A stretch of DNA of 64,000 bases from Halostagnicola larsenii XH-48 (GCF_000517625.1 NZ_CP007057.1:124001-188000); one strand, 5' to 3'. Shown: positions 8,339-45,039, counted from the first letter of the stretch. Translations and numbers: made by a program. Notes: generated by a model from the letters alone, not told the origin.

Positions 8339-8368
8339 TTGGATTGTAACGTATACGCCGTGGGAACA

Positions 8369-16053: not shown

Positions 16054-16422
16054 CACCGGTATTGAGAGGTCCAGAATCGGCTCTCGATACGACATGAATA
16101 TTTGCAGTGATAATCGGTCCTCATGGGCGAAAGAGTTCTCTGGAGAGAGGACAGCTGCGAAGAGGAACGTGGCTCGCGGTTGGAGATGGGCGTGTATCGA
16201 ATCTGCGTAGCGATTCCGTTCGCCAGGGAACGCATGAAGTATCGTTCCCGGATAGGTCCGTATGGGAGATAGTTGGCTACAGTGGCTTCAGGGTTGCCTC
16301 TTTTTTGATACCCATAGAGATGACTAATCGACGGTACGCTTCTCCCAACACCGAAGCTAAACCCGGTGTTGCACTGGATCGACTGGCGATAGCTTTATTT
16401 AATATCTGGCTGATTTAGTGAC
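16054..16422. other. 369-base intergenic region
   Basis: The region holds no recognisable coding sequence. Its last 30 bases contain the promoter of the DapA-family gene: tttatttaat at 16394-16403, about 20-29 bases before ATG 16423. Confidence 0.5.
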
Positions 16423-26353: not shown

Positions 26354-26375
26354 ATGATGCAAACGGGATCAAACA

Positions 26376-27320
26376 ATGGCAACTGAAACAGGAACAGACG
26401 TGCACTCGACGGCCGATCTCGATGAGCAACTGGGTACGGAGAAGTCGACCCGAGAGCGGATGCTCCTCTGGATCGACGAGCGCCTGAAGTGGCTCATGAC
26501 CCTTCCAGCCGTAATTCTTCTCTTTGCTCTGACGTTTTACCCACTTCTCCGTGCACTCCAAATGTCGACACAGCAGTACATGCCCGGCGGACGGACGGTT
26601 TACGTCGGCATCGAGAACTACGCTAATCTACTGGACAACGGTGCGTTCATCGACTCCCTCATAGTGACCGGCAAGTTCATCGGGCTGGCAGTCGGCCTCG
26701 AGTTCATTCTCGGTTTCGGAATCGCGCTCGTGTTGAACAAAAAGATCAAGATGCGCGGACTGTGGCAGACGCTTATCTTGATCCCGATGATCCTCTCACC
26801 GACGGTTATCGGATTGATCTGGCGGCTCATGTACACGCCCGATGGTCTGCTCGATTTCATGGCGGCGCCCTTTATCGGGAGCAACGTCGGCTGGATCAGC
26901 AGCCCAGACGTTGCGTTATACGCCATCGTCATGACTGATGTCTGGCAGTGGACGCCGCTGGTCGTACTGGTCATCTTCGCGGGCCTTCAATCCGTTCCGG
27001 GCGACATTCAAGAAGCTGCGATCATGGACGGAGCACCACGCTGGCGTCGATTCATCGACATTGTGTTCCCCTATTTGAAGTCGCTTATCGTCTTGGTGCT
27101 GATTATTCGCGTTGTCGACGCACTACGCGTGTTCGCGAAGGTGTACATCCTAACCCGCGGAGGGCCGGCGAATGCGACGAACGTGATCAGCATGGAAATG
27201 TACCGGACGGCGTTTCGGTTTAACAACTTCGGCCAGGCGTCGGCGATGGCAATAACGCTGCTGGTCGTCGTGCTCATACTGGCGATGAGCTTCGTCAAAA
27301 TCGCCGATATCAAATTCTGA
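26376..27320 (+). CDS. Sugar ABC transporter permease, MalF/UgpA type
   Basis: The 314-residue protein has six predicted helices after a polar N-terminus of about 40 residues. The coupling loop to the ATPase is VPGDIQEAAIMDGAPRWRRF (the EAA motif). It ends 2 bases before the next permease start. With that protein it forms the pore of a CUT1 importer. Confidence 0.93.
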   Translation: MATETGTDVHSTADLDEQLGTEKSTRERMLLWIDERLKWLMTLPAVILLFALTFYPLLRALQMSTQQYMPGGRTVYVGIENYANLLDNGAFIDSLIVTGKFIGLAVGLEFILGFGIALVLNKKIKMRGLWQTLILIPMILSPTVIGLIWRLMYTPDGLLDFMAAPFIGSNVGWISSPDVALYAIVMTDVWQWTPLVVLVIFAGLQSVPGDIQEAAIMDGAPRWRRFIDIVFPYLKSLIVLVLIIRVVDALRVFAKVYILTRGGPANATNVISMEMYRTAFRFNNFGQASAMAITLLVVVLILAMSFVKIADIKF

Positions 27321-27322
27321 CC

Positions 27323-28231
27323 ATGGCAACAGACCAACAATCGGACGTTCCGTTCAAGGAACCGTCACGACTCGAGAAAGTACAGGAAAGCATCGCAGAG
27401 AAAGGCATCAGCAAGGCGGTTATCTACGGCCTGTTGGGAATGTTTCTCGTCTGGACGCTGTTCCCGGTCTACTGGCTTGTCTCCGGTGCGCTCAAATCCC
27501 GGCAGACGCTACTGGCGTTCCCGCCGGCGTGGTTCCCGACCGAGTTTCAGGTGGGTAACTTCGTCCAGTTGTTCACACAACGGCCCGAGTTCATGCAGTA
27601 CATCTTCAATAGCGTCGTCGTCACGGTCATCACGACGATTATCGCGACGACCATCGGGGCGGCGGCGGCGTACGGGTTCGTCACCTTCGACTTCCCGTAC
27701 AATTTGGACTTCCACCTGCCGTTCTATATCCTCTCGACGCGGTTCATGCCGCCGATCGTGACGATCATCCCCCTGTTCGTCATCTTCCGTAACTTCCAAC
27801 TAGTTAATACGCTGTATGGGCTGATCTGTGTGTACGTAATGTTCAATATCCCCTTTGCCGTGTGGATGATGAAGGGGTTCTTCGACGAGGTGCCAGACAG
27901 CCTCGTCGAGTCAGCGATGCTGGACGGACACACACACATCGGGGCGTTCTTCAAGATCGTCCTACCGCTGGTCAAACCCGGATTGCTCGCCTCGGCGATC
28001 TTCACGACGATCATCACCTGGAACGAACTCCTGTTCGCGATTATCCTGACCCAAGATGTTGCGGCAATGACGCTCCCGGTTGGCCTCTCGTCGTTCGTCA
28101 CGAAGTACTCGGTCCAGTGGATCAACGTCAGCGTCGCCGGAACGATCGCGCTTATTCCGGTCCTCGTGTTCGCATTCGTCGCGAGACAGGAACTCGTTCG
28201 CGGGTTCAGTATGGGGGCCGTAGGTAAATGA
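27323..28231 (+). CDS. Sugar ABC transporter permease, MalG/UgpE type
   Basis: The 302-residue protein has a MalG-type layout: first helix (VIYGLLGMFLVWTLFPVYWL), five more segments and the EAA coupling loop VPDSLVESAMLDGHTHIGAF. The end GFSMGAVGK is typical. It is tightly packed behind the MalF-type gene and followed after 54 bases by the ATPase. Confidence 0.93.
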   Translation: MATDQQSDVPFKEPSRLEKVQESIAEKGISKAVIYGLLGMFLVWTLFPVYWLVSGALKSRQTLLAFPPAWFPTEFQVGNFVQLFTQRPEFMQYIFNSVVVTVITTIIATTIGAAAAYGFVTFDFPYNLDFHLPFYILSTRFMPPIVTIIPLFVIFRNFQLVNTLYGLICVYVMFNIPFAVWMMKGFFDEVPDSLVESAMLDGHTHIGAFFKIVLPLVKPGLLASAIFTTIITWNELLFAIILTQDVAAMTLPVGLSSFVTKYSVQWINVSVAGTIALIPVLVFAFVARQELVRGFSMGAVGK

Positions 28232-28271
28232 CGCACAGTACACCAAAGAAACGGACACGAACACGACTCAC

Positions 28272-28277
28272 GGAGGA
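28272..28277 (+). promoter_or_regulatory. Shine-Dalgarno site for the MalK-type ATPase
   Basis: The sequence ggagga stands 8 bases before ATG 28286. Internal operon genes here use such sites, whereas first genes look leaderless. Confidence 0.55.
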
Positions 28278-28285
28278 ATACAACA

Positions 28286-29443
28286 ATGGTTAACGTCGAA
28301 TACGATTCAGTCGAAAAGCGGTACGGAGAGACAATCGCAGTCGAGGATATCAACCTCAGCGTTGCGGATGGCGAGTTCGCTATCCTCCTCGGGCCCAGCG
28401 GGTGCGGGAAGACAACCACGTTACGCTGTCTCGCTGGCCTCACCGAACCGACCAGCGGGACGATTACGCTGGGGGACTACGATGTCACTGACGTACATCC
28501 GAAAAACCGTAACGCCGCGATGGTGTTCCAGAACTTCGCGCTCTATCCCCACATGAACGTCCGAGAGAATATTGGCTACCCGCTCAAAGTCGCGGGCGTC
28601 GATGGTGACGTCCGCGCCGAGCGCGTTCAAGAAGTCGCTGAAATGCTCGAGATTCCGGAGTTGCTTGATCGGGACATCGACAACCTCAGCGGCGGACAAC
28701 AACAGCGCGTCGCGCTCGGTCGGGCGATTATCCGTCGTCCATCCGTCTTCCTGATGGATGAGCCGCTCGCGAACCTCGACGCGAAACTGAAAATGAGCAT
28801 GCGCAGTCGGATCAAGGTTCTCCAGCGCGAGCTCGGTATCACGACGCTGTACGTAACCCACGACCAGGAGGAGGCAATGTCGTTGGGCGACAAACTCATT
28901 GTGATGGACCAGGGACACATCCAACAGATCGGTTCTCCGGACGAAGTCTATCACGAGCCCGAAAACAGGTTCGTCGCCGGCTTCATCGGATCGCCGTCGA
29001 TGAACTTCATCGACGTCACGATCGACGACTCGGGTACGGTTCGCTCCACGGATGCCGTCGACGGACTCGAGTACCGGCTAGAATCAGGCGTCGCCGATCG
29101 ATACAGCGATCACGATGAGTTCATCCTGGGAATCCGCCCGCAATACTTCAGTGTCCATACGGAACCAATGGATAACGCGATTCGTGGTCAAGTGAAGGTA
29201 ACGGAGCCTCAGGGCGATGACCAGATCGTCGATGTACTTGTCGGTGACGAGGACGGCAGTCACGTCGAACTCACCGTGAAAGCGCCGAGCACCGTCGAAG
29301 CCGTTCGAACTGAGGAAATCTGGCTCACGGTAGACGATACCCTCGTTCACGGGTTTGATGCCCAGTCCGGTTCCCGGATTGACGACGGTGATGTCGCGCG
29401 GACGAAAGCGAGCAAGCAGCACGCCGAATCGACATCGGACTGA
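28286..29443 (+). CDS. Sugar ABC transporter ATPase, MalK/UgpC type
   Basis: The 385-residue protein has Walker A GPSGCGKT (residues 36-43), Q-loop MVFQNFALYPHMNV, signature LSGGQQQR, Walker B VFLMDEPLANLDA and H-loop YVTHDQEEAM, followed by a C-terminal OB/TOBE regulatory domain from about residue 240 (MNFIDVTIDDSGTVRS). It energises the importer of 24986-28231. MalK-type ATPases in haloarchaea can serve several importers, but this one is encoded with its own. Confidence 0.94.
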   Translation: MVNVEYDSVEKRYGETIAVEDINLSVADGEFAILLGPSGCGKTTTLRCLAGLTEPTSGTITLGDYDVTDVHPKNRNAAMVFQNFALYPHMNVRENIGYPLKVAGVDGDVRAERVQEVAEMLEIPELLDRDIDNLSGGQQQRVALGRAIIRRPSVFLMDEPLANLDAKLKMSMRSRIKVLQRELGITTLYVTHDQEEAMSLGDKLIVMDQGHIQQIGSPDEVYHEPENRFVAGFIGSPSMNFIDVTIDDSGTVRSTDAVDGLEYRLESGVADRYSDHDEFILGIRPQYFSVHTEPMDNAIRGQVKVTEPQGDDQIVDVLVGDEDGSHVELTVKAPSTVEAVRTEEIWLTVDDTLVHGFDAQSGSRIDDGDVARTKASKQHAESTSD

Positions 29444-30298: not shown

Positions 30299-31114
30299 TT
30301 ACACGGTCTGGATTGTGGACCAGTAGTCGTAGTTCTCCTTGGCGTGGATGAGCGGTCGATCGGTCTGATTTTCGATCTCAATAGTATAATGTCCCTCGTA
30401 TCCGGTGTCTGTGAGTGCCTTATGGATCGCCTCGAAGTCGAGGATCCCGTTCCCCAGATCAGTGAACGATCGAAAGTAGTTGATGACGTTGTCTAGATGG
30501 AAGTCGGCCGCAGAGAGGGCGTCCCGGTTCGCTGCGAAATCTTTGACCGGATCGACATCCTTGAGGTGGACGTACGCGATGTCATCCGCGAACTGCTCGA
30601 TTCCGTCGGTTACATCGCCTGCGGGGAAATTTTCGCTGTAGGGGTAGTAGTGAGCGGTGTCGAAGAGGAGTTCGAGCCCGTCGACGGCGTCGAGGTAGCG
30701 TCGAATTTCCCCGGGCTGTTCGATGGCCGTCGCACCGTGGTGATGGACGACTGGCCGCACTCCGGCCTCGACGGCAGTATCGCTGATCCGCGATAGCCAT
30801 TGCTCGACGGTTAGGTCGTCGTATCGGGCGCGCTGTGGCGGCAGTATCCCAACGAACTCGGCACCAAGGTCGGCGACAGTCGGTATGTCGTCGAGTACTC
30901 GCTGGACCGCATCTTCGCTCTCGATCCACTCGCTCATCGCAAGGTAGAGGTCCAGATTATACTCATCAAGCCACCGACCAACTTTTTCGGGGCCGTTTGC
31001 GCGAATCTTCTCGAGTCCGATCTCGATACCATCGTACCGGCAGGCGGCGATATCTCCGAAAGCGTCCTCGATGTCCTCGGCATCGTACATAATGGCTGTG
31101 TATCCAGTTCCCAT
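30299..31114 (-). CDS. IolE-like sugar isomerase/dehydratase (TIM barrel), paralogue 1
   Basis: The 271-residue protein starts at ATG 31114 (MGTGYTAIMYDAEDIED); the longer open frame to 31321 adds non-family sequence. The xylose-isomerase-like barrel shows CRYDGIEIGLEKI, a metal site in RPVVHHHGATAIEQPGEI, LLFDTAHYYPYSENFPAG, IAYVHLKDVDPVKDF and a C-terminal YEGHYTIEIEN glutamate. The HHHG, DTAHYYPYG-like and HLKD set resembles inosose dehydratase IolE and IolO-type epimerases. A close paralogue lies at 40116. It is followed upstream by the IclR gene in the same direction, and its start codon lies inside the same motif as the IclR gene. Confidence 0.83.
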   Translation of the reverse strand: MGTGYTAIMYDAEDIEDAFGDIAACRYDGIEIGLEKIRANGPEKVGRWLDEYNLDLYLAMSEWIESEDAVQRVLDDIPTVADLGAEFVGILPPQRARYDDLTVEQWLSRISDTAVEAGVRPVVHHHGATAIEQPGEIRRYLDAVDGLELLFDTAHYYPYSENFPAGDVTDGIEQFADDIAYVHLKDVDPVKDFAANRDALSAADFHLDNVINYFRSFTDLGNGILDFEAIHKALTDTGYEGHYTIEIENQTDRPLIHAKENYDYWSTIQTV

Positions 31115-31405: not shown

Positions 31406-32173
31406 TCAGGAGAACTTTGCGTTGATTTCGATCACATTCGCGGATCGGGTGACCATGTTGGGAAGTTCCTCTCGGTACCGTTCGCCCGTCATCCGACTCG
31501 AGGGCCCGGAAATGCTCACCGCCCCAAGTACCTCGTTTTCGCCGGCCATTACTGGTGCCGCGACACATCGAAGTCCCTCGATTTTCTCCTCGTCGTCGAA
31601 TGCGTACCCGCGCTCGCGAATGGTTTCGAGTTCCTCGAAAAGTTCATCGCGGCTAGTAATCGTCTGCGAGGTGTACTCCGGCAGTCCGTGCCGATCGATT
31701 ATCCCTTTAACGCGCTCGCGTGGGTAATGGGCGAGAATCACCTTTCCGAGCGAAATACAATGAAGGTACTCCCGTTTTCCGATCGACGAGGCTGTCTGAA
31801 CGGCCCGCTCGCCGCCGTCCTTGTAGAGGTATACTGCGCGGCCGTGTTCCTCCGTCGCGAACTGAACCAGCTCATCGGATTGCTCGGCTAAGTCGGCCAG
31901 CTCGTCGGTTACGACATCATAGATCCCGAGGTGCTTCTTGACGCCCTCGCCAAGCTCGAGGTACCGGAGACTGAGCTGGTAGGCATCACCTTTTTTGACA
32001 ACGTGTTCCTTCTCGAGCAACGTTGCTAGATGGCAGTGAATTGTTCCTTTTGATCGGCCTAGTTCGTCTGCGATTTCTGTGATCCGAGCGCTATCGTGTT
32101 CGTGTAGGTAGTTAATGATTTCAAGCGTGATCCCCACCGCCTGAATCGTTCTCGGCTTTGTCGCCTTTTCCAT
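31406..32173 (-). CDS. IclR family transcriptional regulator of the second catabolic block
   Basis: From ATG 32173 (MEKATKPRTIQAVG) the protein is 255 residues. The winged helix covers about residues 12-60 (ITEIADELGRSKGTIHCHL as recognition region), and the effector domain carries EYLHCISLGKVILAHYPRE and ends with VSISGPSSRMTGERYREE, the IclR signature. It is divergent from the MmsA-type gene (32378) with about 200 bases between them, and lies directly upstream of an isomerase gene. XacR of Haloferax, the regulator of pentose oxidation, is in the same family. It probably senses a sugar acid or cyclitol intermediate and controls this block and itself. Confidence 0.9.
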   Translation of the reverse strand: MEKATKPRTIQAVGITLEIINYLHEHDSARITEIADELGRSKGTIHCHLATLLEKEHVVKKGDAYQLSLRYLELGEGVKKHLGIYDVVTDELADLAEQSDELVQFATEEHGRAVYLYKDGGERAVQTASSIGKREYLHCISLGKVILAHYPRERVKGIIDRHGLPEYTSQTITSRDELFEELETIRERGYAFDDEEKIEGLRCVAAPVMAGENEVLGAVSISGPSSRMTGERYREELPNMVTRSANVIEINAKFS

Positions 32174-32187
32174 GTGGGAGTCAAACA
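32170..32187. promoter_or_regulatory. Putative IclR operator overlapping the regulator's own start
   Basis: The plus strand reads ccatgtgggagtcaaaca, one base different from 31111-31128. On the minus strand the ATG of the IclR gene is embedded in TCCCACATGG, and a TATA-like aacaattta lies about 20 bases further upstream. Position implies autoregulation; no binding evidence is available from sequence alone. Confidence 0.45.
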
Positions 32188-32377
32188 CGCGGGTCCACTA
32201 AATTGTTTGTGTCTGCCAAACGAACCAGTAGCTGCCCTCACCTCATTTTTGCTGAGCATGATACTGGACCAGTTGAGTAGTCAGCGGCCCCATCAAATCA
32301 ACGTGAACGAGGATAGGGGCCTCTCGAGATAGAACGAGCGTAACGTATTTGTGTTCGTGCCGCAACGAATATCTTGT

Positions 32378-33877
32378 ATGTCCGAGCAACGAGAGCAAGC
32401 CGTTTCGCCAGCTGTTCGTAACCGCGTCGATAACTACGTTGGTGGGGAGTGGACGACACCAACCACTGAGACCTCCCAACCGGTGGTCGACCCTGCAACA
32501 GGAGATGAACTCGCAACGGTCGAATACTCGACCGCAGAAACCGTCGACGAGGCAGTCCGAACGGCGGACGAGGTGTTCGAGGAATGGCGACAGACGCCCG
32601 TCGTCGACCGAGTACAGTATCTTTTTGATCTGAAGGCCGAACTCGAGAACCGACTCGACGAGATTGCGACTGCACTGTCCCGCGAACACGGGAAGACCAT
32701 CGCAGAGGCCCGCGGCGAGATCCAACGCGGTATCGAGAACGTCGAGGTCGCCTGCGGAATGCCGAACATGATGCGTGAGGGCAGCGGAAACGTCGAAGAT
32801 GTCGCACCCGGTATGGACGAATACGCTGTTCGCCAGCCTCTCGGCGTCTTCACCGCCATCACGCCCTTTAATTTCCCTGCGATGATCCCGCTGTGGTTCC
32901 TTCCATACGCGGTCGCGTCCGGGAACACGTTCATTCTCAAACCCAGCGAGAAGGTCCCGTTGAGCTCCCAGCTCATCTTCGAGGCAGTCGACGCGGTCGG
33001 TTTCCCCGATGGAGTCGTTAACCTCGTCAACGGCGGGGCCAACACTGTCAACGCACTGCTCGAGCACGACGACATCGAGGGCGTCTCGTTCGTCGGAAGT
33101 TCCCCCGTTGCAAAGCACGTCTACGAGACTGCCGCCGAACACGGCAAGCGCGTCCAGGCACAGGGAGGCGCGAAGAACTACGCCGTTGTTACCGAGCACG
33201 CCGCGGTTGACGATGCTGTTCCGAATATCACCGGCTCCGTCTACGGTAACGCCGGCCAGCGCTGTCTCGCCAACGACGTCGTCGTCGGTGTCGGCGATGT
33301 CTACGATGAACTCCGCGAACAGTTGATCGAAGCCGCCGAGAACCTTACCGTCGGCGCCGGTGTCGATGAGGATACTGATGTTGGACCCCTGATTACAGGC
33401 GACTCGCGCGAACGCGTTATCGACCTGATCGACAACGCGCTCGAGGAGGGAGCTGAACTCGTCCTCGACGGACGTGACTTCGAACACTCGAACGCAGAAC
33501 TTGACGGCCACTTCCTGGGTCCGACGCTCCTTAAGGGTGTCACGACCGACATGGAGATCGCACAGGAGGAAATCTTCGGGCCGGTGCTGTGTCTCGCCGA
33601 CGCCGGTGACCTGGATGAGGCGATCGAAATGGTCAACTCGACGGAGTACGGCAACGCGTCTTCGATCTACACCGAATCGGGCAGCGAGGCGCGCCAGTAC
33701 AAGTACGAGGTCGATGCGGGGAACATCGGCGTCAATGTCGGCGTCTGTGCTCCGATGGGGTTCTTCCACTTCGGCGGGCGGAAAGCGTCGTTCTTCGGCG
33801 ATTTGCACGCTCAGGGCGAAGATGCGGTCAACTTCTACACTGAGAAAACGGTTCAGATCGAACGGTGGTATAGCTAA
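32378..33877 (+). CDS. mmsA: Methylmalonate-semialdehyde dehydrogenase (CoA-acylating), MmsA/IolA type
   Basis: From ATG 32378 (MSEQREQAVSPAV) the protein is 499 residues. It has the MmsA-typical GKTIAEARGEIQRGIENVE, RQPLGVFTAITPFNFPAMIP, catalytic Cys296 in GNAGQRCLAN, AQGGAKNYAVV lacking the general-base glutamate of hydrolytic aldehyde dehydrogenases, and the C-terminal FHFGGRKASFFGDLHAQGED. Such enzymes convert malonate or methylmalonate semialdehyde with NAD and CoA to acetyl- or propionyl-CoA plus CO2; IolA does this as the last step of inositol breakdown, and others do it in valine breakdown. Divergent from the IclR gene. A TATA-like cgtatttgtg lies about 30 bases upstream. Confidence 0.9.
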   Translation: MSEQREQAVSPAVRNRVDNYVGGEWTTPTTETSQPVVDPATGDELATVEYSTAETVDEAVRTADEVFEEWRQTPVVDRVQYLFDLKAELENRLDEIATALSREHGKTIAEARGEIQRGIENVEVACGMPNMMREGSGNVEDVAPGMDEYAVRQPLGVFTAITPFNFPAMIPLWFLPYAVASGNTFILKPSEKVPLSSQLIFEAVDAVGFPDGVVNLVNGGANTVNALLEHDDIEGVSFVGSSPVAKHVYETAAEHGKRVQAQGGAKNYAVVTEHAAVDDAVPNITGSVYGNAGQRCLANDVVVGVGDVYDELREQLIEAAENLTVGAGVDEDTDVGPLITGDSRERVIDLIDNALEEGAELVLDGRDFEHSNAELDGHFLGPTLLKGVTTDMEIAQEEIFGPVLCLADAGDLDEAIEMVNSTEYGNASSIYTESGSEARQYKYEVDAGNIGVNVGVCAPMGFFHFGGRKASFFGDLHAQGEDAVNFYTEKTVQIERWYS

Positions 33878-34301: not shown

Positions 34302-35540
34302 ATGTACGAAGACTTTGCATCAACTCTCGCGGCGACGATGTGGACCGACTTCGACGAAACACCAGAACGGGAGGGACCAACTGCCGAGATAACGGACATC
34401 GATTCGTTCGTCATCGACGGTAACTTCCCGTGGACGATCATCACCCTCGAGACCGATCAAGGCGTGACGGGGATCGGCGAGGCTTACCCCTCACCGGGCG
34501 TTCACGAGATCGTCACGGACTACCTCCGACCCGTACTCGTCGGTGAGAACCCGCTCGACGTCGAGCGGCTCTACAACCTCATGCGCGAGAGCCTCTCGGG
34601 CCGAGGATCGCAGTGGGGCGTCGGGACGATCGCCATCAGCGGTGTCGAGATCGCGCTCTGGGATGCGGCCGGCAAAATACTCGACCAGCCGATCTACCAG
34701 CTACTCGGCGGGAAGACCCGCGACGAGGTTCGCGTCTATGCCGATTGCCACGCGGGGGAAGCGATGGTTTCCTCGGCCGAGGAGGGCCAGGAGGAGACGA
34801 CCTACGAACCCGAGGCGTACGCACGAGCTGCCCGATTGGCGGTTGAAGACGGGTTTGACGCGGTCAAGTTCGATCTCGATGTTCCGTCCGGACGGGACAT
34901 CGACACGCTCTCGAGACACTTCGATCCCCCGGAGATCGAGCACAAGCGATCCGTCGTCGAGGCCGTCACCGAGGAAGTCGGTGACGACGCTGAGGTCGCG
35001 GTTGACCTTCACTGGAACTTCAGTCCCGAAACCGCCGAACGACTTTGCGAAGCTATCGAACCCTACGACCTCGCCTGGGTCGAAGATCCACTCCCGCCCG
35101 AGAACACCGATGCGATGCGGGAGCTGAAACGGTCGACTAACGTGACGCTGTTGACCGGTGAGAACCGCTACGGCCGGCACGGGTTCCGCGATCTAATCGA
35201 GGAGCAAGCGGTGGACTTCCTCGCCCCCGACGTTCCGAAGACCGGCGGTATCGCGGAGACGAAGAAGATCGCGGACATGGCCGAGGCCTACTATCAGGCG
35301 CTGATTCCGCACAATATCGGCAGCCCAGTTGCGACGGTCGCGACCGCCCACGTCGGCGCGACGGTTCCGAACTTCGTCGCCCTGGAGTATCACGCCCGCG
35401 AGGTGCCATGGTGGGACGACCTCGTTGCGCGGGACGACCCGCTCATCCAGAACGGACGGCTTACGGTCCCCGACGGGCCGGGACTCGGCATCGAACTCGA
35501 CTGGGACGTCGTCGACGAACACCGGAAAACACGGTCCTGA
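34302..35540 (+). CDS. Enolase-superfamily sugar-acid dehydratase (gluconate/galactonate dehydratase-like)
   Basis: The 412-residue protein has the mandelate-racemase-type fold with TGIGEAYPSPGVHEI in the cap, K189 and D191 in AVKFDLD, metal ligands D235 (VDLHWNF), E261 (WVEDPLPPEN) and E287 (LTGENRYGR), and H337 in LIPHNIGSPV. The DLHW, EDP, GEN and PHN pattern is that of D-galactonate/D-gluconate-type dehydratases, which give 2-keto-3-deoxy acids. It differs from the dehydratase at 3973, so the two act on different acids. It precedes the F420-dependent enzyme by about 155 bases. Confidence 0.87.
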   Translation: MYEDFASTLAATMWTDFDETPEREGPTAEITDIDSFVIDGNFPWTIITLETDQGVTGIGEAYPSPGVHEIVTDYLRPVLVGENPLDVERLYNLMRESLSGRGSQWGVGTIAISGVEIALWDAAGKILDQPIYQLLGGKTRDEVRVYADCHAGEAMVSSAEEGQEETTYEPEAYARAARLAVEDGFDAVKFDLDVPSGRDIDTLSRHFDPPEIEHKRSVVEAVTEEVGDDAEVAVDLHWNFSPETAERLCEAIEPYDLAWVEDPLPPENTDAMRELKRSTNVTLLTGENRYGRHGFRDLIEEQAVDFLAPDVPKTGGIAETKKIADMAEAYYQALIPHNIGSPVATVATAHVGATVPNFVALEYHAREVPWWDDLVARDDPLIQNGRLTVPDGPGLGIELDWDVVDEHRKTRS

Positions 35541-35695: not shown

Positions 35696-36715
35696 ATGGT
35701 TAACATCGATTACATGGCGCATCAGGAGCAGTACGACCCATCGACGCTGTTGGACTACGGGGAACACGCGACCGACAGCGGGTACGAAACCGTCTGGACG
35801 TCGGATCACTTCCACCCGTGGTTTCATACGGAAGCGGACTCCGGGTTCGCGTGGTCTTGGCTCGGCGCAGCCACCGAACGGCTGGACGGCCCGATTGGGA
35901 CCTGCGTGACGCCCGCGACGGGCCACTACCATCCCGGGATGATCGCACAGGCGTTCGCCACGCTTCAACACCTCCACGATGATCGGGTACTGCTCGGTCT
36001 CTCCACCGGTGAGGCGATGAACGAGACGCCGCTCGGGTTCGACTGGCCCGAGTACCCCGAACGCCGCGACCGGCTTGAGGAAGCCCTCGAAATCATCCGC
36101 GCGCTCTGGGGCGACGACGAGTGGGTCAGCGACGATGTCGGTGATAGGATCGACGAGGACGGATTCGTCACCTACGACGGGGAGCGGTTCGAACTCGACG
36201 AGGCCAAACTGTACACGATGTCCGAGCGGTCGCCGGAGATTCACATCGCGGCAAACGGGCCAAGCACCGCCCGGCTCGCGGCGCGGTATGCCGATGGGTT
36301 CGTCACCGTCAAGAAAGGAGAGGAGTACACCGAGCGGCTCTACCCCGCTATCCGCCGCTACGCCGAAGAGGAGGGCAACGACCCGGACGCGATCGAGACG
36401 ACGCTGCTCGTGACCGCGTCTTACCACTCCGACTACGAGCAGGCGCTCGAGGCGACGCGCCCGTGGCACGCGACGACCCAGAACGTCTTTGACCGGGCGC
36501 TGGCGGACCCGAGAGATATCGAAGCTGAGGGAGAGAAGGCAACCCGCGAGGAAGTAGAAGAGAAGTTTTTGATCGCTGACGATCCGTCGGCCATTGCGAG
36601 TCAGCTCGAGGAGTACGCCGAGATGGGCTTCGATCGGATCGCGGTTGCGAACACCAGCCCGGATCCCGAGCAGCTATTCGAGGTGATGAACGACGACGTG
36701 ATTCCGTCGCTGTGA
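35696..36715 (+). CDS. F420-dependent (LLM class) sugar dehydrogenase-like oxidoreductase
   Basis: From ATG 35696 (MVNIDYMAHQEQYDPSTLL) the protein is 339 residues. It matches the F420-dependent glucose-6-phosphate dehydrogenase branch of the luciferase-like family: TVWTSDHFHPWFHTEADSGF, GTCVTPATGHYHPGMIAQ, LGLSTGEAMNETPLGFDWPE and SERSPEIHIAANGPSTARLA. Histidine in SDHFHPW is an F420/active-site position in Fgd enzymes. It would oxidise a sugar, sugar phosphate or cyclitol and pass hydride to deazaflavin F420, which haloarchaea make. The open frame extends to 35408 but that part overlaps the previous gene and is non-family. Substrate unknown. Confidence 0.83.
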   Translation: MVNIDYMAHQEQYDPSTLLDYGEHATDSGYETVWTSDHFHPWFHTEADSGFAWSWLGAATERLDGPIGTCVTPATGHYHPGMIAQAFATLQHLHDDRVLLGLSTGEAMNETPLGFDWPEYPERRDRLEEALEIIRALWGDDEWVSDDVGDRIDEDGFVTYDGERFELDEAKLYTMSERSPEIHIAANGPSTARLAARYADGFVTVKKGEEYTERLYPAIRRYAEEEGNDPDAIETTLLVTASYHSDYEQALEATRPWHATTQNVFDRALADPRDIEAEGEKATREEVEEKFLIADDPSAIASQLEEYAEMGFDRIAVANTSPDPEQLFEVMNDDVIPSL

Positions 36716-36934: not shown

Positions 36935-38677
36935 ATGCCCACGCTTACTGGTGGCGAGATCGTCGCCAAGTATCTAGAAAAGGAGGGCGTAGAGTATCTG
37001 GTCGGCATTCCCGGTCACGGAAGCACCAACCTGCTCGACGCGTTCAACGACTCCGATGTCGAGGTTATTCAGCCGCGCCACGAACAGGGCGCGACCCACC
37101 TTGCGGACGGGTATGCCCGCGCATCAGGCGATCCGCTCGCGGTCTTCACCTCGATTGGACCCGGAGCGACGAACACCGTTACCGGTGCTGCGACGGCGTA
37201 CGTCGACTCGATTCCGATGGTCATCTTCACCGGAGCGCCACAGACTCACGAGTACGGACAGGGGATCCTGCAGGAACTCGACCGGCAGAAACCCGGCGAC
37301 TTCCCGAGCGTGATGGAACCGGTGACAAAACGGAGCTTCGTCGTACGAGACGTCGAACAGCTCCCTCGGACCTTGCGACGCGCGTTTCAGGTTGCCGTCA
37401 CGGGTCGGCCGGGACCCGTCCACGTTGACATCCCGATGGACGTACAGGGAAGTGCCGCGGATGTCGAGATTCCCGATCCCGAGGAGACGCGCACGCACAG
37501 TCGACCGGGCGGCGATCCGGAATCGATCGAAGAGGCGGCGAACCTGCTCGCCGACGCTGATCGCCCCGTGATCGTTCCCGGCGGTGGGTGTATGCTCGGC
37601 GAGGCATGGGACGAGGTGCAAGCGCTCGCCGAACACCTGAAAGCACCCGTTATTCCGACGTTCCAGGCGAAGGGGATCATCCCCGAAGACCACGAACTCT
37701 TCGTCGGGTACGCAGGCTGGATCGGGTCGTCGGCCGGAAACGAACTTGCGAGCAACGCGGACGTCGTCCTCGGGATCGGCTGTCGATTCTCCGACTTGCA
37801 CACGTCATCGTTCGAACAGGGGGTCAGCTTCGAGATACCGCCGAGCAAGCTGATCCACGTCGACATCGACAACACGGAGATCGGCAAGAACTACCCCGTC
37901 GAGGTCGGCATCCTCGGCGACGCCAAGGTCGTCACCGACCAACTCCACGACGCCGTCTTCGAGCGCGTCGACGAAGTGTCGACCGAGGACAACGAGTACT
38001 ACGACGAGATCCAGCGCCTGTGGGCCGACTGGCAGGAACAGGTCGAACAGCGCCACACCGACGATGTTCCGATGAGTATCGCCCGCGCACTCGCGAGTCT
38101 CCGAGAGGCACTGCCCCGCGAGGGCATGATCGTCTCAAGCGCGGGTCAACCCCAGGAGATCACGAACCCGGAGTTCCCGGTGTACGATCCGCGGACGAAC
38201 ATCTCCTGTGGCGGATTCTCGACGATGGGCTTTGGCGTCTCTGCCGCGATCGGAGCGAAACTCGCCGAACCCGACCGGCCCGTTGTCGACATCGAAGGCG
38301 ACGGAAGTTTCCTGATGTGCAACCAAGAAGTCGCCTGCGCGGTCGAACACGACATCGATGTCACCTGGGTCGTGGTCAACAACAACGGCTGGAAGTCGAT
38401 TCGCAATCTGCAAGTCGACAAGTACGGCTGGGACCGGGTTCTCAACACGGAGTTCGACAACGACAGCGATGTCGACTTCGTGAAGATGGCCGACGCGTTC
38501 AGCATCGATTTCGCCGAACGCGTCGTTAAACCCGAAAATCTCACGGAAACGATCACGGACGCTATCGAGCACGACGGCCCCGCGTTCGTCGAAGCCGTCG
38601 TCGAACCCGACAGCGCCGACTCCGGCGCCATCATCACTGGTGAGTGGGATCTGGCGGATCTCGAAGCGGACGACTAA
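36935..38677 (+). CDS. Thiamine-pyrophosphate-dependent enzyme (acetolactate synthase/IolD superfamily)
   Basis: The 580-residue protein begins MPTLTGGEIVAKYLEKEGVE and carries the activating glutamate E50 in QPRHEQGATHLADGYAR, the central FAD/ADP-like domain (RPVIVPGGGCML), and the C-terminal TPP motif IEGDGSFLMCNQEV ending at VVNNNGWKSIRNLQ. The family makes or breaks C-C bonds next to a carbonyl. IolD uses this chemistry to hydrolyse a cyclic 1,2-diketone in inositol breakdown. The gene stands directly before an IolM-like dehydrogenase. It is shorter than typical IolD, and acetolactate synthase-like, glyoxylate carboligase-like or oxalyl-CoA decarboxylase-like roles cannot be excluded. A dedicated branched-chain biosynthesis role is unlikely here because no small subunit is adjacent. 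Confidence 0.85.
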   Translation: MPTLTGGEIVAKYLEKEGVEYLVGIPGHGSTNLLDAFNDSDVEVIQPRHEQGATHLADGYARASGDPLAVFTSIGPGATNTVTGAATAYVDSIPMVIFTGAPQTHEYGQGILQELDRQKPGDFPSVMEPVTKRSFVVRDVEQLPRTLRRAFQVAVTGRPGPVHVDIPMDVQGSAADVEIPDPEETRTHSRPGGDPESIEEAANLLADADRPVIVPGGGCMLGEAWDEVQALAEHLKAPVIPTFQAKGIIPEDHELFVGYAGWIGSSAGNELASNADVVLGIGCRFSDLHTSSFEQGVSFEIPPSKLIHVDIDNTEIGKNYPVEVGILGDAKVVTDQLHDAVFERVDEVSTEDNEYYDEIQRLWADWQEQVEQRHTDDVPMSIARALASLREALPREGMIVSSAGQPQEITNPEFPVYDPRTNISCGGFSTMGFGVSAAIGAKLAEPDRPVVDIEGDGSFLMCNQEVACAVEHDIDVTWVVVNNNGWKSIRNLQVDKYGWDRVLNTEFDNDSDVDFVKMADAFSIDFAERVVKPENLTETITDAIEHDGPAFVEAVVEPDSADSGAIITGEWDLADLEADD

Positions 38678-38757
38678 CCGGGCGATCGCTGCCGGATACG
38701 CACGAGCGAATCACTCGAGTTTCTGTCCTTGCTAATCGGGGGCATCCTGACTCCGAT

Positions 38758-38769
38758 ATTATTATAATA
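38758..38769 (+). promoter_or_regulatory. TATA box of the IolM-like gene
   Basis: The sequence attattataata lies 22-33 bases before ATG 38791, giving the IolM-like gene its own leaderless promoter. Confidence 0.55.
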
Positions 38770-38790
38770 GATGATAGCAAACCACATAGT

Positions 38791-39945
38791 ATGCAATCCC
38801 TTGTAGTGGACGCCGAGTGGGACCCCCGTGCGGAATATGACGTTTCGGACGCCGAGCGCGAATCAAAGAAAGCGATGGACGCCTCACAGGTATGGCGAAA
38901 TCCCGAATTCCGAATGACTGAGCGGGAACGGCCGACACCGGAGGACGACGAAGTGCTCGTCAGAGTGAAGTACGCGGGCATTTGCGGGAGCGATGTCTCC
39001 ATGCTCGAGACGGACGATGACGGTTACGTCCACTATTCGGCGTACCTCCGTCTCCCGAACGTGACCGGCCACGAGTTCGCAGGTGAGATCGTCGAGACGG
39101 GCGATGATACACAACTGTTCGAGGCAGGCGACCTCGTCACTGCGGAGGTTACCGACTACTGTGGGCGCTGTAATATGTGCCGGCAGGGCTTCAACGGCCA
39201 CTGCGAGAACTTCGAACAGATCGGCTTTACCATTCCAGGCGCGTTCGCAGAGTATGTCGCCGTCCCGGAGAAACTGTGCTGGGATGTCTCAGCGCTTCGC
39301 GAAACGTACGAAACGGACGACGAAGCGCTTCGAGCCGCCGCGACGATCGAGCCGAGCACCATCACGTACCACGGACTGTTCGCTCGAGCCGACGGGATCT
39401 TGCCCGGGGACTATCACGTCTACCACGGTGCGGGTCCGATCGGGCTGACCGGGATGAACGTCTCTCGGGCCGCCGGCGCGGGTAAGGTGATTGCGTTCGA
39501 GCCCTCCGACGAGCGCCGCGAGATCGCAAGAAAGCTCGGCTACGAACACGTTTACAATCCGATCGAACACGATCCGATTGAGACGATCGCCTCGGTTACG
39601 GACGGCGAGGGAGCTGATGTTCACGTTGAGACTGCCGGTGCGGTCACGCAGACGTACCCCGCTATCGGGGATACGCTGGCTGAGACCGCAAATGTGGTCC
39701 ATATCAGCAATGCCGGATCCGACCCTGGAATTGCACTGCGGAAGTACCAGGGCAACAGCGCCCAACTCTATGGGTCGGAGGGACACACCGGTCAGCAGGT
39801 CTACCCGCGAGTGATTCGATTGATGGCCGCCGGACAGCTCGATAACCGACCGATGGTCACGTCCACGTTCGATCTCTCCAACGCCGACGAAGCAATTCGG
39901 CAGGCTGCCGAGCGCGTCGACGGGAAAGTTCTCATCAAGATGTAG
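38791..39945 (+). CDS. IolM-like zinc dehydrogenase (scyllo-inosose 3-dehydrogenase-like)
   Basis: From ATG 38791 the protein is 384 residues. The opening (VVDAEWDPRAEY, ASQVWRNPEFRM) and long N-terminal lead before the catalytic domain match, from memory, Thermotoga maritima TM0412/IolM rather than ordinary alcohol dehydrogenases. Catalytic zinc ligands are C65 (GICGSD), H94 and E95 (TGHEFAG); structural zinc cysteines are C124, C127, C130 and C138. The Rossmann loop is GAGPIGLTG, and GSEGHTGQQVYPRVIRLMA is another family feature. IolM oxidises 2-keto-myo-inositol to a diketo-inositol with NAD. It follows the TPP enzyme by 113 bases with its own TATA box. Alternatives are a threonine- or sorbitol-type dehydrogenase. 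Confidence 0.8.
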   Translation: MQSLVVDAEWDPRAEYDVSDAERESKKAMDASQVWRNPEFRMTERERPTPEDDEVLVRVKYAGICGSDVSMLETDDDGYVHYSAYLRLPNVTGHEFAGEIVETGDDTQLFEAGDLVTAEVTDYCGRCNMCRQGFNGHCENFEQIGFTIPGAFAEYVAVPEKLCWDVSALRETYETDDEALRAAATIEPSTITYHGLFARADGILPGDYHVYHGAGPIGLTGMNVSRAAGAGKVIAFEPSDERREIARKLGYEHVYNPIEHDPIETIASVTDGEGADVHVETAGAVTQTYPAIGDTLAETANVVHISNAGSDPGIALRKYQGNSAQLYGSEGHTGQQVYPRVIRLMAAGQLDNRPMVTSTFDLSNADEAIRQAAERVDGKVLIKM

Positions 39946-40115: not shown

Positions 40116-40919
40116 ATGGGCGTAGGATACACGACCATCATGTACGACCCAGCGGAGGTACTGTCTGAAGGCCTCGGTGACTTCGCCGCCTGTCGGTACG
40201 ACGGCGTCGAGATCGGTCTCGGCAAAGTCGAATACATCGGCGTCGACTCCCTGCAGGAGTCCCTTGAGGAAAACGGCCTCGACATCTACTGTGTCATGGC
40301 GGGCTGGCTCAACAACGAGGAAGACGTCGAGGCGGCAGTCGACGGGGCCGCGATCGCGGCCGAACTCGACGCCCGCTTCCTCGGGATCTTGCCCCCGCCG
40401 CGGGGCCAGGAGACCGACGAAACGTTCGATGCGTGGCTCGATCGAATCTGTACGGCGGCCGCCGACGCCGGCGTCACGCCCGTCCTCCATCATCACGGTG
40501 CCTCACACATCGAGAGTCCCGAAGAAATCGAAGAGTGGCTTGACCGAGCACCCGACAACCTCGAGTTGTTGTACGACACGGCACACTACCAGCCATACGG
40601 CGATGTCCTTGACGGCATCCATCGGTTCGCAGATGATATTGCGTACGTTCACCTCAAAGATATCGACCCAACAGTCGACTTCCAGAGTCACGTCGATACC
40701 CTTTCCGCGGGGAACATCCAGTACGACAGCCTCTTCGTGTTCCTCACGTCGTTCGTCGATCTCGGAGCAGGCGTCATCGACTTCGAAGCTGTCGACGAAG
40801 CGCTCGACGAGATCGGATACGAGGGACAGATTACAATCGAAATCGAGAACGAACGTAACGACAGGCTCGTCCACGCAAAGCGCAACATCGATCACTGGAC
40901 CGACGCAACCAACGCGTGA
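40116..40919 (+). CDS. IolE-like sugar isomerase/dehydratase (TIM barrel), paralogue 2
   Basis: The 267-residue protein begins MGVGYTTIMYDPAEVL and follows the paralogue at 30299-31114 along its length: CRYDGVEIGLGKV, PVLHHHGASHIESPEEI, LLYDTAHYQPYGDVLDG, IAYVHLKDIDPTVDF and YEGQITIEIENERN. These contain the metal-binding glutamate, histidine and aspartate positions of inosose dehydratases and keto-sugar epimerases. It stands behind the IolM-like gene in the same direction. The two paralogues may carry out consecutive or stereochemically different steps (dehydration and epimerisation). Exact reactions unknown. Confidence 0.85.
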   Translation: MGVGYTTIMYDPAEVLSEGLGDFAACRYDGVEIGLGKVEYIGVDSLQESLEENGLDIYCVMAGWLNNEEDVEAAVDGAAIAAELDARFLGILPPPRGQETDETFDAWLDRICTAAADAGVTPVLHHHGASHIESPEEIEEWLDRAPDNLELLYDTAHYQPYGDVLDGIHRFADDIAYVHLKDIDPTVDFQSHVDTLSAGNIQYDSLFVFLTSFVDLGAGVIDFEAVDEALDEIGYEGQITIEIENERNDRLVHAKRNIDHWTDATNA

Positions 40920-41085: not shown

Positions 41086-42195
41086 TCAGGCGTCGGTCTC
41101 GACCGCGAGTCGCTGCCCTTGCTCGTCGCTTTGGACGACCGTGTCGACGATTCGCTGTACCGTCAGCGCTTCATCGAAGGAAACGATACCATCGCCCTCG
41201 TCCGCAATCGCGCGGAGGAACTCGTAATTTTCGTGAACGACGGTGTGTTCCCAGCCGATCGTGTGGCCAGCCGGCCACCATCGCTCGCCGTACGGATCCT
41301 CGTCATCGGTGACGAGGATCCGTTCGTAGCCCCGTCGGTCGGCGTCGTATACCTCGAGTTCGTTGAGCCGCTCGAGATCGAATCGGACTGCGCCCTCGGA
41401 GCCGATGATTTCGATCGCATTGGTTGCCTTGTGTCCCGACGCTACGCTCGAGCCTTCGAAGACGCCGACAGCACCGGATTCGAACGACGCCGTTGCGAGG
41501 TAGATATCGTCGGTTGTCACCGGTCGCGCGCTTTCGTCGTCGGCCGCAGGCCGTTCGTCTACAAGCGTCGCGAGCCGTCCGCTAACGTCAGTGATCTCCC
41601 CGACGAGCCAACGAGCAAGATCGATCGTGTGTGAGCCGACATCGCCGACCTGACCGTAGCCCGCCCGCTCGACGTTGTTACGCCAGACCCACGGATGCTT
41701 GGGATCGGCCTGCCAGTCGACGAGGTACTGCCCGCGGACGTGTCGTATCTCGCCGAGCGTGCCCTGCTCGATCAGTTCCTTCGCCAGCCGAAGCGCTGGG
41801 ACGTATCGGTAGTTGAACGCGCACGCGGCGACAGCGTCGCTCTCCCTTGCTGCTGTTACCATCCGTTCGGCGTTCTCGAGAGAGGCAGCGAGCGGTTTCT
41901 CACAGAGGACGTGGACATCCTGCTTGAGGGCTGCGATCGTCGGTTCGGCGTGAAGGTCGTTCGGTCCGAGATTGTAGAGGACGTCCACCTCGTCGACGAG
42001 CGTCTCCCAGTCGTCGGTCGTGTGGGTGAACCCGAACCGATCGGCGGCCGCGGCGACGCGTTCCTCGTTGCGCCCGCAGAGGACGTGTCGATCGGTGTCC
42101 GGTGCCTCGGGAAAGAACATCGGGAGGCGAGCCAGTGCGTTCGCGTGGGCCTGTCCCATGAAGCCGTAGCCGATGAACCCGACGCGTAGGCTCAT
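41086..42195 (-). CDS. Gfo/Idh/MocA family dehydrogenase (inositol dehydrogenase-like candidate)
   Basis: The 369-residue protein has MSLRVGFIGYGFMGQAHANA with the nucleotide-binding loop, catalytic CEKP (residues 99-102), FNYRYVPALRLAKELIEQG, then WVWRNNVERAGYGQVGDVGS followed by HTIDLARWL, the GxHxxD catalytic pair. This long-insert form is common among myo-/scyllo-inositol and levoglucosan-type dehydrogenases. It is divergent from the paralogue at 42489. A ggaggtc stretch 5-11 bases upstream of ATG 42195 could be the ribosome-binding site. It is the best candidate in the block for oxidation of a cyclitol to an inosose; substrate unproven. Confidence 0.87.
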   Translation of the reverse strand: MSLRVGFIGYGFMGQAHANALARLPMFFPEAPDTDRHVLCGRNEERVAAAADRFGFTHTTDDWETLVDEVDVLYNLGPNDLHAEPTIAALKQDVHVLCEKPLAASLENAERMVTAARESDAVAACAFNYRYVPALRLAKELIEQGTLGEIRHVRGQYLVDWQADPKHPWVWRNNVERAGYGQVGDVGSHTIDLARWLVGEITDVSGRLATLVDERPAADDESARPVTTDDIYLATASFESGAVGVFEGSSVASGHKATNAIEIIGSEGAVRFDLERLNELEVYDADRRGYERILVTDDEDPYGERWWPAGHTIGWEHTVVHENYEFLRAIADEGDGIVSFDEALTVQRIVDTVVQSDEQGQRLAVETDA

Positions 42196-42488: not shown

Positions 42489-43577
42489 ATGAAAATCGGA
42501 GTTATCGGTGTCGGCGCTATCGCACAGATCATGCACGTTCCGTACCTCGCGGAACTGCCCGAAGCTGACATTCACGCGATCGCAGATCCTGGCGAAAACG
42601 TGGTCGAAACGTTCGGTGACCGATACAACGTTTCCCATCGATACACGGAGAGTACGGCGCTGATCGAAGATCAGGCCGAAACGCTCGACGGCGTGGTGAT
42701 CACCACGCCGATGCACACCCACGCGGAGGTAGCAATCGCTTCTCTCGAGGCGGATTTACACACGTTCGTCGAAAAGCCGGTGGCCGTGACGCCCGCAGAC
42801 GCACAACGAGTCGTCGATGCATCCGAAGCGTCGGACGCGGTTTGTATGGTCGGTTACATGAAACAGTTCGATCCCGGCTTCCAGCGATTCCAGTCTGCAG
42901 TCGACGACGTCTCCGAGGTCAATCTCGTCACGAGTACCGTTATCCCCCCGGACGTCGGCTCGGTCATCGAGGAGAACTACGATATCGTCTACGCCGACCT
43001 CGCGGACTCGTTCATCGAGGAGAGCAACGAAGAGCGCCGCCAGCAAGTCGAACAGGCGATTGGAACCGATGACGAGACGCTTTCGCAGGCGTACGATTTC
43101 CACCTTGAAAGCATCTGCCACGATATCAATGCGTTGCGGTCCGTGTTCGGATCCGTCGAACAGATCGACCACATCGACATCTTCGACGACTGGAAATTTA
43201 TCACTGCACAACTCCGGTACGAAGGAGACCGACGATGTCTCTTGAAGGCCGGGACGAGCGATCGGAAGTGCTACGACGAGCGCATTCACGTTGACGCCCC
43301 CGAGGGATCGGCATCAATCGAGTTCTCAAATGCGTTCATCAAGAACACCCCGTCGGATGTCCGCGCTAAACTCGGCACGGAAGAGACGACGGAGACACAG
43401 TATACTCCCTCGTCGGACGAACCGTTCAAACGGGAACTCCAACACTTCCTCGAGTGTATCGAGGGATCGGCTGAGCCCCGGACGCCACCAGCAGAATCGA
43501 AGCGAGATGTCGAACTCATTGCCGACCTTATCCGAACGTACGACAAGGAGGGCGAGGCGAGTAGCGTCAGCCGCTAG
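42489..43577 (+). CDS. Gfo/Idh/MocA family oxidoreductase (paralogue of the 22689 product)
   Basis: From ATG 42489 (MKIGVIGVGAIAQIMHVPY) the protein is 362 residues. It shares with the 22689 product the start pattern, the VEKP catalytic motif (residues 96-99), the charged insert DSFIEESNEERRQQVEQAI and the unusual LESICHDINALRSVFG. The two are clearly a paralogous pair placed one in each catabolic block. The substrate is unknown; a sugar acid or inosose is suggested by neighbours. Confidence 0.87.
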   Translation: MKIGVIGVGAIAQIMHVPYLAELPEADIHAIADPGENVVETFGDRYNVSHRYTESTALIEDQAETLDGVVITTPMHTHAEVAIASLEADLHTFVEKPVAVTPADAQRVVDASEASDAVCMVGYMKQFDPGFQRFQSAVDDVSEVNLVTSTVIPPDVGSVIEENYDIVYADLADSFIEESNEERRQQVEQAIGTDDETLSQAYDFHLESICHDINALRSVFGSVEQIDHIDIFDDWKFITAQLRYEGDRRCLLKAGTSDRKCYDERIHVDAPEGSASIEFSNAFIKNTPSDVRAKLGTEETTETQYTPSSDEPFKRELQHFLECIEGSAEPRTPPAESKRDVELIADLIRTYDKEGEASSVSR

Positions 43578-43685: not shown

Positions 43686-44492
43686 CTACCACTCCATCCA
43701 AGCAGGGTCCTCACAGCGGAGTCGGCGATCGATGTTGTCGATTCGTTCGATATCCTCGTCGTCCAATTCAAGTTCAAGCGCCTTGCGGTTGTTCCGAATG
43801 TGTTCGGGCGTCTTCGACCGGGGAATCGGAACGACGTCATCCTTCGAGAGGAGCCAGGTCAGACTAACTGTGGCCTCGTTCACGTCGTGTTTGTCGGCGA
43901 TCGACGAAATTTCAGGGGTATCGAACACTTCGCCCTGCGCGATCGGGGAGTAAGCGACGAAGTACGCGTCACGGTCTCGGACGGCCGCACGGAGTTCCTC
44001 CTGTGGTAAGAACGGGTGCATCTCGGCCTGGACCGCATACGGTGACGGTTCGAGGAGTTCGTCGGCAAGTTCTAGATCCGAGGGTGTATAGTTGCTCACG
44101 CCGACGCGCTCGACCTGTCCCGAATTGACGAGTTCGTTGAAGACGGGTAATACGGTCTCGATGTCGTCCTGGCCGCGGGGCCAATGGTGGTAGAGCAGAT
44201 CGATCGTCTCGATCCCGAGTCGAGAGAGACTTTCCTCGACGCCATTTCGAATATAGTCCGGCGTCTTCTCCGGTTCCTCGAAATGGGCGATCTTCGTGGC
44301 GACGAACAGGTCGTCGCGATCGACGTTGGCACGGGCGATAGCCTCGCCGACCTCCGCTTCGTTTCCGTAGAGACGGGCCGTATCGAGGTGACGGTACCCC
44401 GATTCGATCGCCGTCACGAGGGCGTCGATCCCGTCCTCGTCAGTGAGACTGTACGTCCCGAATCCGAGCCTGTAGTCGCTTTTCTCAAGCAT
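43686..44492 (-). CDS. Aldo/keto reductase
   Basis: The 268-residue protein starts at ATG 44492 (MLEKSDYRLGFGTYSL). The catalytic tetrad is visible as D (HLDTARLYGNE, with the tyrosine), K (FVATKIAHFE) and H (LLYHHWPRG), and the NADPH site as PIPRSKTPEHIRNN. The family reduces aldehydes and keto-sugars with NADPH. It converges with the oxidoreductase at 42489 and closes the second catabolic block. A role in reducing a keto-sugar or aldehyde product is plausible but unspecific. Confidence 0.9.
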   Translation of the reverse strand: MLEKSDYRLGFGTYSLTDEDGIDALVTAIESGYRHLDTARLYGNEAEVGEAIARANVDRDDLFVATKIAHFEEPEKTPDYIRNGVEESLSRLGIETIDLLYHHWPRGQDDIETVLPVFNELVNSGQVERVGVSNYTPSDLELADELLEPSPYAVQAEMHPFLPQEELRAAVRDRDAYFVAYSPIAQGEVFDTPEISSIADKHDVNEATVSLTWLLSKDDVVPIPRSKTPEHIRNNRKALELELDDEDIERIDNIDRRLRCEDPAWMEW

Positions 44493-45039
44493 GCCCGAAA
44501 CAAGGCTCGAGCGGCCCTTATATTTTCTCGTTCGAAGGTTGCTTGAGGTCAAACTCAACTCTATTCTGGGTATTGGGCCAGTGCCTGACGATAGTGATTA
44601 CCTATCATAACCCAGTGAGCAGTTTTCACGATGCCGTTGAGCGACCAGAAGACAGCGTTTGCAAGACGAAAACGACATTCTCTCCCTCGTATCGAATTCT
44701 GCGAATAAATTCCGGCTTCTATGAACGAGTGCTCATGAAAACGGCTGTTACTCCAATCCAGTGACTCTATCTGTGTTTGATCATTACGAACTACCGGACG
44801 AGGGGATAATCTCAACAGTCGGTCAAACGTTGAAGTGTTTCCGGCCGAACGAAATGAAGTAGCGCCTTCCGAAAGAATTTACACCCATACATGTGTAATT
44901 GTATGGGTGTGATCGTTCCGAGATGAATCACCCAGCAAAGTTGGCGCATTTGGACGTTTGTAAGACGCAAACGAGGTCCCTCAGTCCCTCTCGTCCGGTG
45001 GCATGGAGTGGCAGCTGTTTCAGCGGTAAATATCCCCGT
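44493..45039. other. 547-base intergenic region
   Basis: No recognisable gene. A minus-strand open frame at 44561-44815 (containing RFRLANAVFWSLNGIVKT) has the composition of real coding sequence but matches nothing I know. It may be a fragment. Confidence 0.4.

Follow-up and report, generated by a model that had tools for sequence, protein, structure and literature searches.

The 64,000-nucleotide stretch of Halostagnicola larsenii XH-48 analysed here (NZ_CP007057.1:124001-188000, hereafter the window), which sits within a 465-kb haloarchaeal contig (G000:C3), encodes a thiamine diphosphate (ThDP) enzyme that is proposed to open the ring in an oxidative haloarchaeal inositol pathway that needs no kinase, a reading to which a probability of roughly 55% can be attached. 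That the surrounding genes supply a complete pathway of this kind, built around a new family of ThDP ring hydrolases and an F420-dependent sugar-acid dehydrogenase, is about an even proposition. The gene in question is:

36935..38677, + strand: ThDP enzyme of 580 amino acids (ATG at 36935), proposed ring-opening hydrolase of an IolE-type cyclic 1,2-dione, equivalent to IolD but in a family of its own

All three domains of a ThDP enzyme (PF02776, PF00205 and PF02775 in Pfam) are found in this protein. The catalytic glutamate, E50, and the cofactor motif residues G455-D456-G457 and N483 are invariant across 19 haloarchaeal and bacterial relatives, and N482 is almost invariant. With its three domains, catalytic glutamate and GDG...N cofactor motif, the protein is a member of the ThDP enzyme superfamily. 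The initial annotation, which had described intact E50 and GDG...NN motifs and a position ahead of an IolM-like gene, is thus borne out: the two open frames are real, lie on the same strand and are separated by 113 bp.

Acetohydroxyacid synthases (AHAS) are the nearest family in both sequence and fold, providing the best NCBIfam and Foldseek matches; identity to haloarchaeal AHAS is 34-36%, and to IolD 28%. Nevertheless, the protein falls under every AHAS cut-off (the best model, TIGR00118, giving 443 versus 538 bits), under that of IolD (TIGR04377, 287.5 versus 715 bits, with relatives at 272-289) and under that of glyoxylate carboligase (NF008431, 336 versus 791 bits). In glyoxylate carboligase the catalytic glutamate is replaced by valine, whereas E50 is kept here. 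A careful tree resolves the haloarchaeal enzymes as a clade of their own, distinct from IolD as well as from AHAS and glyoxylate carboligase, with support of 100/100. A quick tree with IolD on the haloarchaeal side was discarded, the program having warned that long branches met in it and the two being parted in the careful tree; the TIGR04377 score and the careful tree together also speak against the protein being a hidden member of the IolD family. At 24 positions that discriminate IolD from AHAS, the window enzyme agrees with AHAS at 11, with IolD at five (H28, I74, A403, S429 and I489) and with neither at eight, and the AHAS motifs MVRQW and GGA are altered to SIRNL and GHG. It also matches cyclohexane-1,2-dione hydrolase (PDB 2pgn) by sequence (E 1e-47), a ThDP enzyme that opens a six-membered 1,2-dione. 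The window enzyme is neither IolD nor AHAS, and its function must therefore be read from its context.

Related genes occur elsewhere. Bacterial plasmid-borne ThDP enzymes (L084, L085, L086, L087 and L088, at approximately 10001-11790) are 45-46% identical to that of the window, and several of them are encoded beside a gene resembling histidinol dehydrogenase, a sugar ABC transporter and GMC oxidoreductases. Haloarcula-type genomes (L081 and L082; also L159 and L160) carry a second ThDP paralogue, 67-68% identical, which adjoins an ABC ATPase and has no partner of the luciferase-like monooxygenase (LLM) family within the 20-kb stretches mapped.

Such an LLM gene, encoding a putative F420-dependent oxidoreductase, lies directly upstream of the ThDP gene in the window. 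Presence was counted over 391 haloarchaeal genomes, and the distribution of the LLM gene is that of the ThDP gene, genome for genome: the same 24 genomes, from 12 genera, with the pair adjacent or almost so in all of them in shuffled gene orders. Neighbourhoods were compared at 27 loci, where some gaps in the table were due to a crude open reading frame caller and were filled by searches (LLM 24/24, aldolase 24/24 and the TIM barrel in G324). An MR_MLE dehydratase, an HpcH/HpaI aldolase and an IolE-like TIM barrel are each found nearby in all 24 genomes with the ThDP enzyme, and an IolG-like Gfo/Idh dehydrogenase in 23. A methylmalonate-semialdehyde dehydrogenase (MMSDH) scores above its cut-off in 22, although in G097 it is on a different contig. 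As these genes appear in differing orders and on differing strands, they have been kept together across rearrangement. The smallest clusters, of Halomicrobium type (L078-L080; G041, G058 and G113), run LLM-ThDP-MMSDH-aldolase-Gfo-MR_MLE-TIM barrel, lack IolM, and consist of exactly the seven enzymes needed for the seven steps proposed below. The window counterparts of the partners of the ThDP gene are:

22689..23756, + strand: Gfo/Idh dehydrogenase, IolG-like (TIGR04380, 90 bits versus a cut-off of 355; K98 of EKP, CHDIN motif)
23793..24590, - strand: HpcH/HpaI-type class II pyruvate aldolase, proposed 4-hydroxy-2-oxoadipate aldolase (HpaI/GarL matches)
30299..31114, - strand: IolE-like TIM barrel, core copy, proposed inosose dehydratase (IolE the best NCBIfam match)
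32378..33877, + strand: CoA-acylating (methyl)malonate-semialdehyde dehydrogenase, IolA-type (TIGR01722)
34302..35540, + strand: enolase-superfamily acid-sugar dehydratase, proposed 5-deoxyglucarate dehydratase (Pfam MR_MLE; in all 24 clusters)
35696..36715, + strand: F420-dependent LLM oxidoreductase, proposed 5-deoxyglucuronate dehydrogenase (nearest structures, conserved residues, same 24 of 391 genomes)

In bacteria, IolD uses ThDP and water to split the bond between two neighbouring carbonyls, yielding an aldehyde and an acid in the form of 5-deoxyglucuronate, which IolB then isomerises before phosphorylation by IolC. The haloarchaeal pathway would begin in the same way, with an IolG-like dehydrogenase forming an inosose and the IolE-like TIM barrel dehydrating it to trihydroxycyclohexane-1,2-dione, which the ThDP enzyme and water would cleave to 5-deoxyglucuronate, the task of IolD. 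A 1,2-dione substrate is expected on chemical grounds because the clusters hold an IolE-like protein. IolB was found in none of the 24 genomes, while no search was made for IolC. Given that IolB is lacking and that the ThDP gene invariably has an F420 aldose-type dehydrogenase beside it, the LLM enzyme is proposed to oxidise the aldehyde end of 5-deoxyglucuronate, giving 5-deoxyglucarate. Loss of water across C2-C3, catalysed by the enolase-superfamily enzyme, would then produce 4-hydroxy-2-oxoadipate, which the HpaI/GarL-type aldolase would cut into pyruvate and malonate semialdehyde, the latter being converted by the IolA-type dehydrogenase to acetyl-CoA and CO2. The overall products would be pyruvate, acetyl-CoA and CO2. 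The scheme assigns a single place to each enzyme family of the minimal cluster; we infer every substrate and the order of the steps, whereas family membership, conservation and co-occurrence, together with the lack of IolB and IolN, are observed.

The partner enzymes can be matched to these roles to differing extents. The nearest solved structures to the LLM protein are an F420-dependent alcohol dehydrogenase (1rhc) and F420-dependent glucose-6-phosphate dehydrogenase (F420-G6PDH; 5lxe and 3b4y), and its score against the F420-G6PDH family TIGR03557 equals the cut-off exactly (210.4 bits in both cases), which was counted as membership. Equivalents of the F420-G6PDH His, Trp and Glu are present in 23 of 23 LLM members. 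The residues named as forming the phosphate pocket of F420-G6PDH are Lys197, Lys258 and Arg282 (PMC5352752); in the LLM members these positions hold Lys or Thr, Arg or Lys, and Lys, respectively. The two retained basic residues could hold a carboxylate. A sugar phosphate was also considered as the substrate and appears unlikely given the cluster context, though the pocket is still basic.

For the core TIM barrel, IolE is the best NCBIfam match at 75 bits, the next family reaching 21, and the top PDB match to its AlphaFold model (pLDDT 88) is the IolE structure 3cny, followed by Brucella IolE (9zmw). HHH, E132, D152, H155, H183 and E246, a metal-ligand pattern, are common to it and five bacterial IolEs. 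Related epimerases and hydratases (YcjR and keto-glucal hydratase) come close behind IolE in the fold search, and the fold therefore leaves the reaction unsettled. IolE is the sole PDB match by sequence to a second TIM-barrel copy, the subtype of which is limited to IolM-bearing genomes, yet does not occur in every one. IolE itself dehydrates 2-keto-myo-inositol to a cyclic 1,2-dione, and in B. subtilis the TIM-barrel isomerase IolI turns 1-keto-D-chiro-inositol into 2-keto-myo-inositol (PMC9603128).

In the later part of the route, D235, H237, E261 and H337 of the enolase-superfamily protein were located and align with 2qq6. The aldolase scores 204.8 bits for HpaI and 202.1 for GarL, both under the cut-off; its PDB matches are GarL and HpaI, D41, E43, H44, R71, E149 and D175 are at the expected places, and its relatives cleave 4-hydroxy-2-oxo-diacids. 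The MMSDH belongs to TIGR01722 (533.5 bits versus a cut-off of 448.5), retains R117, R295 and C296, and is 43% identical to Thalassospira IolA.

A number of observations count against an inositol pathway opened by the ThDP enzyme. Besides the separation of this protein from IolD by score, by tree and at the discriminating positions, the core TIM barrel is well under the IolE cut-off (TIGR04379, 75 versus 290 bits) and both IolG-like proteins are far under theirs (90 and 112 bits). MMSDH above cut-off was found nowhere in G133 and G200 (L064 and L069, of one genus), though both retain the ThDP-LLM cluster. The intermediates 5-deoxyglucarate and 4-hydroxy-2-oxoadipate were derived by reasoning and not from a paper: the open-access literature yielded no report of haloarchaeal inositol catabolism or of either compound in such a context, nor any inositol growth phenotype for haloarchaea. 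Lastly, IolM, present in 21 of the 24 genomes, has no required step in the proposed pathway. Its gene in the window is:

38791..39945, + strand: IolM (scyllo-inosose 3-dehydrogenase family) of 384 amino acids (ATG at 38791), a medium-chain dehydrogenase/reductase, accessory

Over its whole length this dehydrogenase scores 555 bits against the IolM equivalog NF041097 (cut-off 450), a threshold passed by Thermotoga maritima alone among the control genomes. The ThDP enzyme (79-100% identity) is found in 24 of the 391 haloarchaeal genomes, IolM above cut-off in 22 and both in 21, a co-occurrence with a Fisher p of ~1e-30, uncorrected for shared ancestry. The two genes are within ~3 kb of each other in 18 of the 21 genomes having both, in an order and on strands that vary between genera. 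The pairing is not due to chance. The sole genome with IolM and without the ThDP enzyme, G327, is incomplete (89%), and the three ThDP genomes from which IolM is missing are the Halomicrobium-type ones, all of one genus. One genome (L065, G191) has two copies in a single cluster, ~90% and ~70% identical to that of the window, the second of which occupies the place of a levoglucosan-dehydrogenase-like gene in its relatives.

The product of IolM is a 1,3-diketone, which IolN opens through a retro-Claisen-type hydrolysis. The initial annotation had suggested that the ThDP enzyme takes the place of IolN by acting on this product. In that case IolM would oxidise an inosose to the 1,3-diketone and the ThDP enzyme would hydrolyse it to 5-ketogluconate. 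The inositol context stands, as do the role of the ThDP enzyme as a likely ring opener and the lack of IolN, which scores above cut-off (NF041098, 245 bits) in none of the 24 genomes and at best reaches 104.5 bits. Action on the IolM product in place of IolN is improbable, despite the firm membership of IolM and its close association with the ThDP gene: IolM is missing from the ThDP cluster in three genomes, the exact partner of the ThDP gene in all 24 is the LLM gene, and the clusters hold an IolE-like protein. Furthermore, ThDP chemistry of the IolD kind requires neighbouring carbonyls, and the ThDP ring-openers known to us, IolD and cyclohexane-1,2-dione hydrolase, act on 1,2-diones. On chemical grounds, formation of 5-ketogluconate would also leave MMSDH, the aldolase, the F420 enzyme and the IolE-like protein without a role. 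If the ThDP enzyme instead opens an IolE-type 1,2-dione, IolM may be an accessory that feeds in other inositols or handles other inososes.

Slightly less probable still is that the same logic serves a different main substrate, which could be another cyclitol or a 3-keto-sugar (from a glycoside or from levoglucosan); the TIM barrels would then be eliminases, hydratases or epimerases. The levoglucosan-dehydrogenase-like protein at 14 loci, the matches of the TIM-barrel fold to YcjR and keto-glucal hydratase and the low scores of the IolG-like proteins are all consistent with such a substrate. By contrast, IolM is above its equivalog cut-off, the closest structural neighbours of the TIM barrel are IolEs and the levoglucosan-type gene is absent from the minimal clusters. 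An AHAS-type carboligase condensing 2-keto acids or aldehydes from the cluster is just as unlikely: the best database matches and the balance of discriminating positions favour it, but the missed cut-offs, separate clade and altered motifs do not, a separate AHAS-like gene exists in the same genome on contig C1, and acetolactate would have no obvious use in a catabolic cluster yielding pyruvate.

The remaining genes of the window cluster, including an aldo/keto reductase of a type found at 17 loci, are:

24986..29443, + strand: sugar-type ABC transporter (binding protein, two permeases and ATPase), the block kept at 11 loci and the substrate judged from position
31406..32188, - strand: IclR-type regulator of the cluster (PF01614 and PF09339; 18 loci)
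40116..40919, + strand: second IolE-like TIM barrel, possibly an inosose isomerase (subtype in IolM-bearing genomes only)
41086..42195, - strand: Gfo/Idh dehydrogenase, levoglucosan-dehydrogenase-like, accessory (NF052479, 305 bits versus a cut-off of 650; 14 loci)
42489..43577, + strand: second IolG-like Gfo/Idh dehydrogenase (TIGR04380, 112 bits versus a cut-off of 355)
43686..44558, - strand: aldo/keto reductase, DkgB-like, accessory

Upstream, at 1245-17352, the window contains a second group resembling a sugar-catabolism cluster, with Gfo/Idh, MR_MLE, TIM-barrel, ABC transporter, medium-chain dehydrogenase and DapA-like aldolase genes.

The haloarchaeal cluster is predicted from sequence to be a new variant of inositol catabolism. 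A 2022 survey including 1,511 archaeal genomes found iol-type inositol degradation to be restricted to bacteria (PMC9430895); a search needing three of iolB, C, D and E would have missed this cluster because IolB and IolD-family proteins are lacking. The role of F420 in haloarchaea has been described as "undetermined" (PMC8498797) and "enigmatic" (PMC8305020), and the strict co-inheritance of an F420-type enzyme with a catabolic cluster makes such a role directly testable. If the proposal is correct, it would represent an archaeal inositol route of an undescribed kind and the first catabolic role of F420 in haloarchaea, adding a non-phosphorylated inositol route to those known for sugars in these organisms.

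Compared with the bacterial pathway (IolG-IolE-IolD-IolB-IolC-IolJ-IolA), the dehydrogenation, dehydration, ThDP-dependent opening and final MMSDH step would be held in common, whereas the haloarchaeal clusters lack IolB (0/24), their ThDP enzyme is outside the IolD family, and F420-dependent oxidation, dehydration and an HpaI-type aldolase are proposed to replace the kinase and phospho-aldolase steps. In the genuine iolD clusters of Klebsiella aerogenes pC9_001 (L188, 8214-16774) and Shinella sp. WSD5-1 (L189, 1642-13842), iolD is accompanied by genes for an aldehyde dehydrogenase resembling succinate-semialdehyde dehydrogenase, an aldolase of HpaI-like type and a 2-hydroxyacid dehydrogenase, with no iolB or iolC within the stretches shown; judging by this parallel, bacteria too may have an oxidative branch following IolD. 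The Thermotoga maritima pathway (IolG-IolM-IolN-IolO) shares with the haloarchaeal cluster an IolM above the equivalog cut-off, but the latter lacks IolN, includes MMSDH and, in three genomes, is without IolM.

Among individual enzymes, AHAS is the closest family to the window ThDP enzyme, which differs in its missed cut-offs, altered active-site motifs, own clade and catabolic context. Cyclohexane-1,2-dione hydrolase, likened to it by sequence match, belongs to the same superfamily and is more distant than AHAS. Similarly, F420-G6PDH and F420-dependent alcohol dehydrogenase are the nearest solved relatives of the LLM protein, in which the catalytic residues are kept; it differs from F420-G6PDH in the phosphate pocket, where two residues are mostly swapped for other basic ones and the third is Lys or Thr, and in a cluster context that points to a non-phosphorylated pathway.

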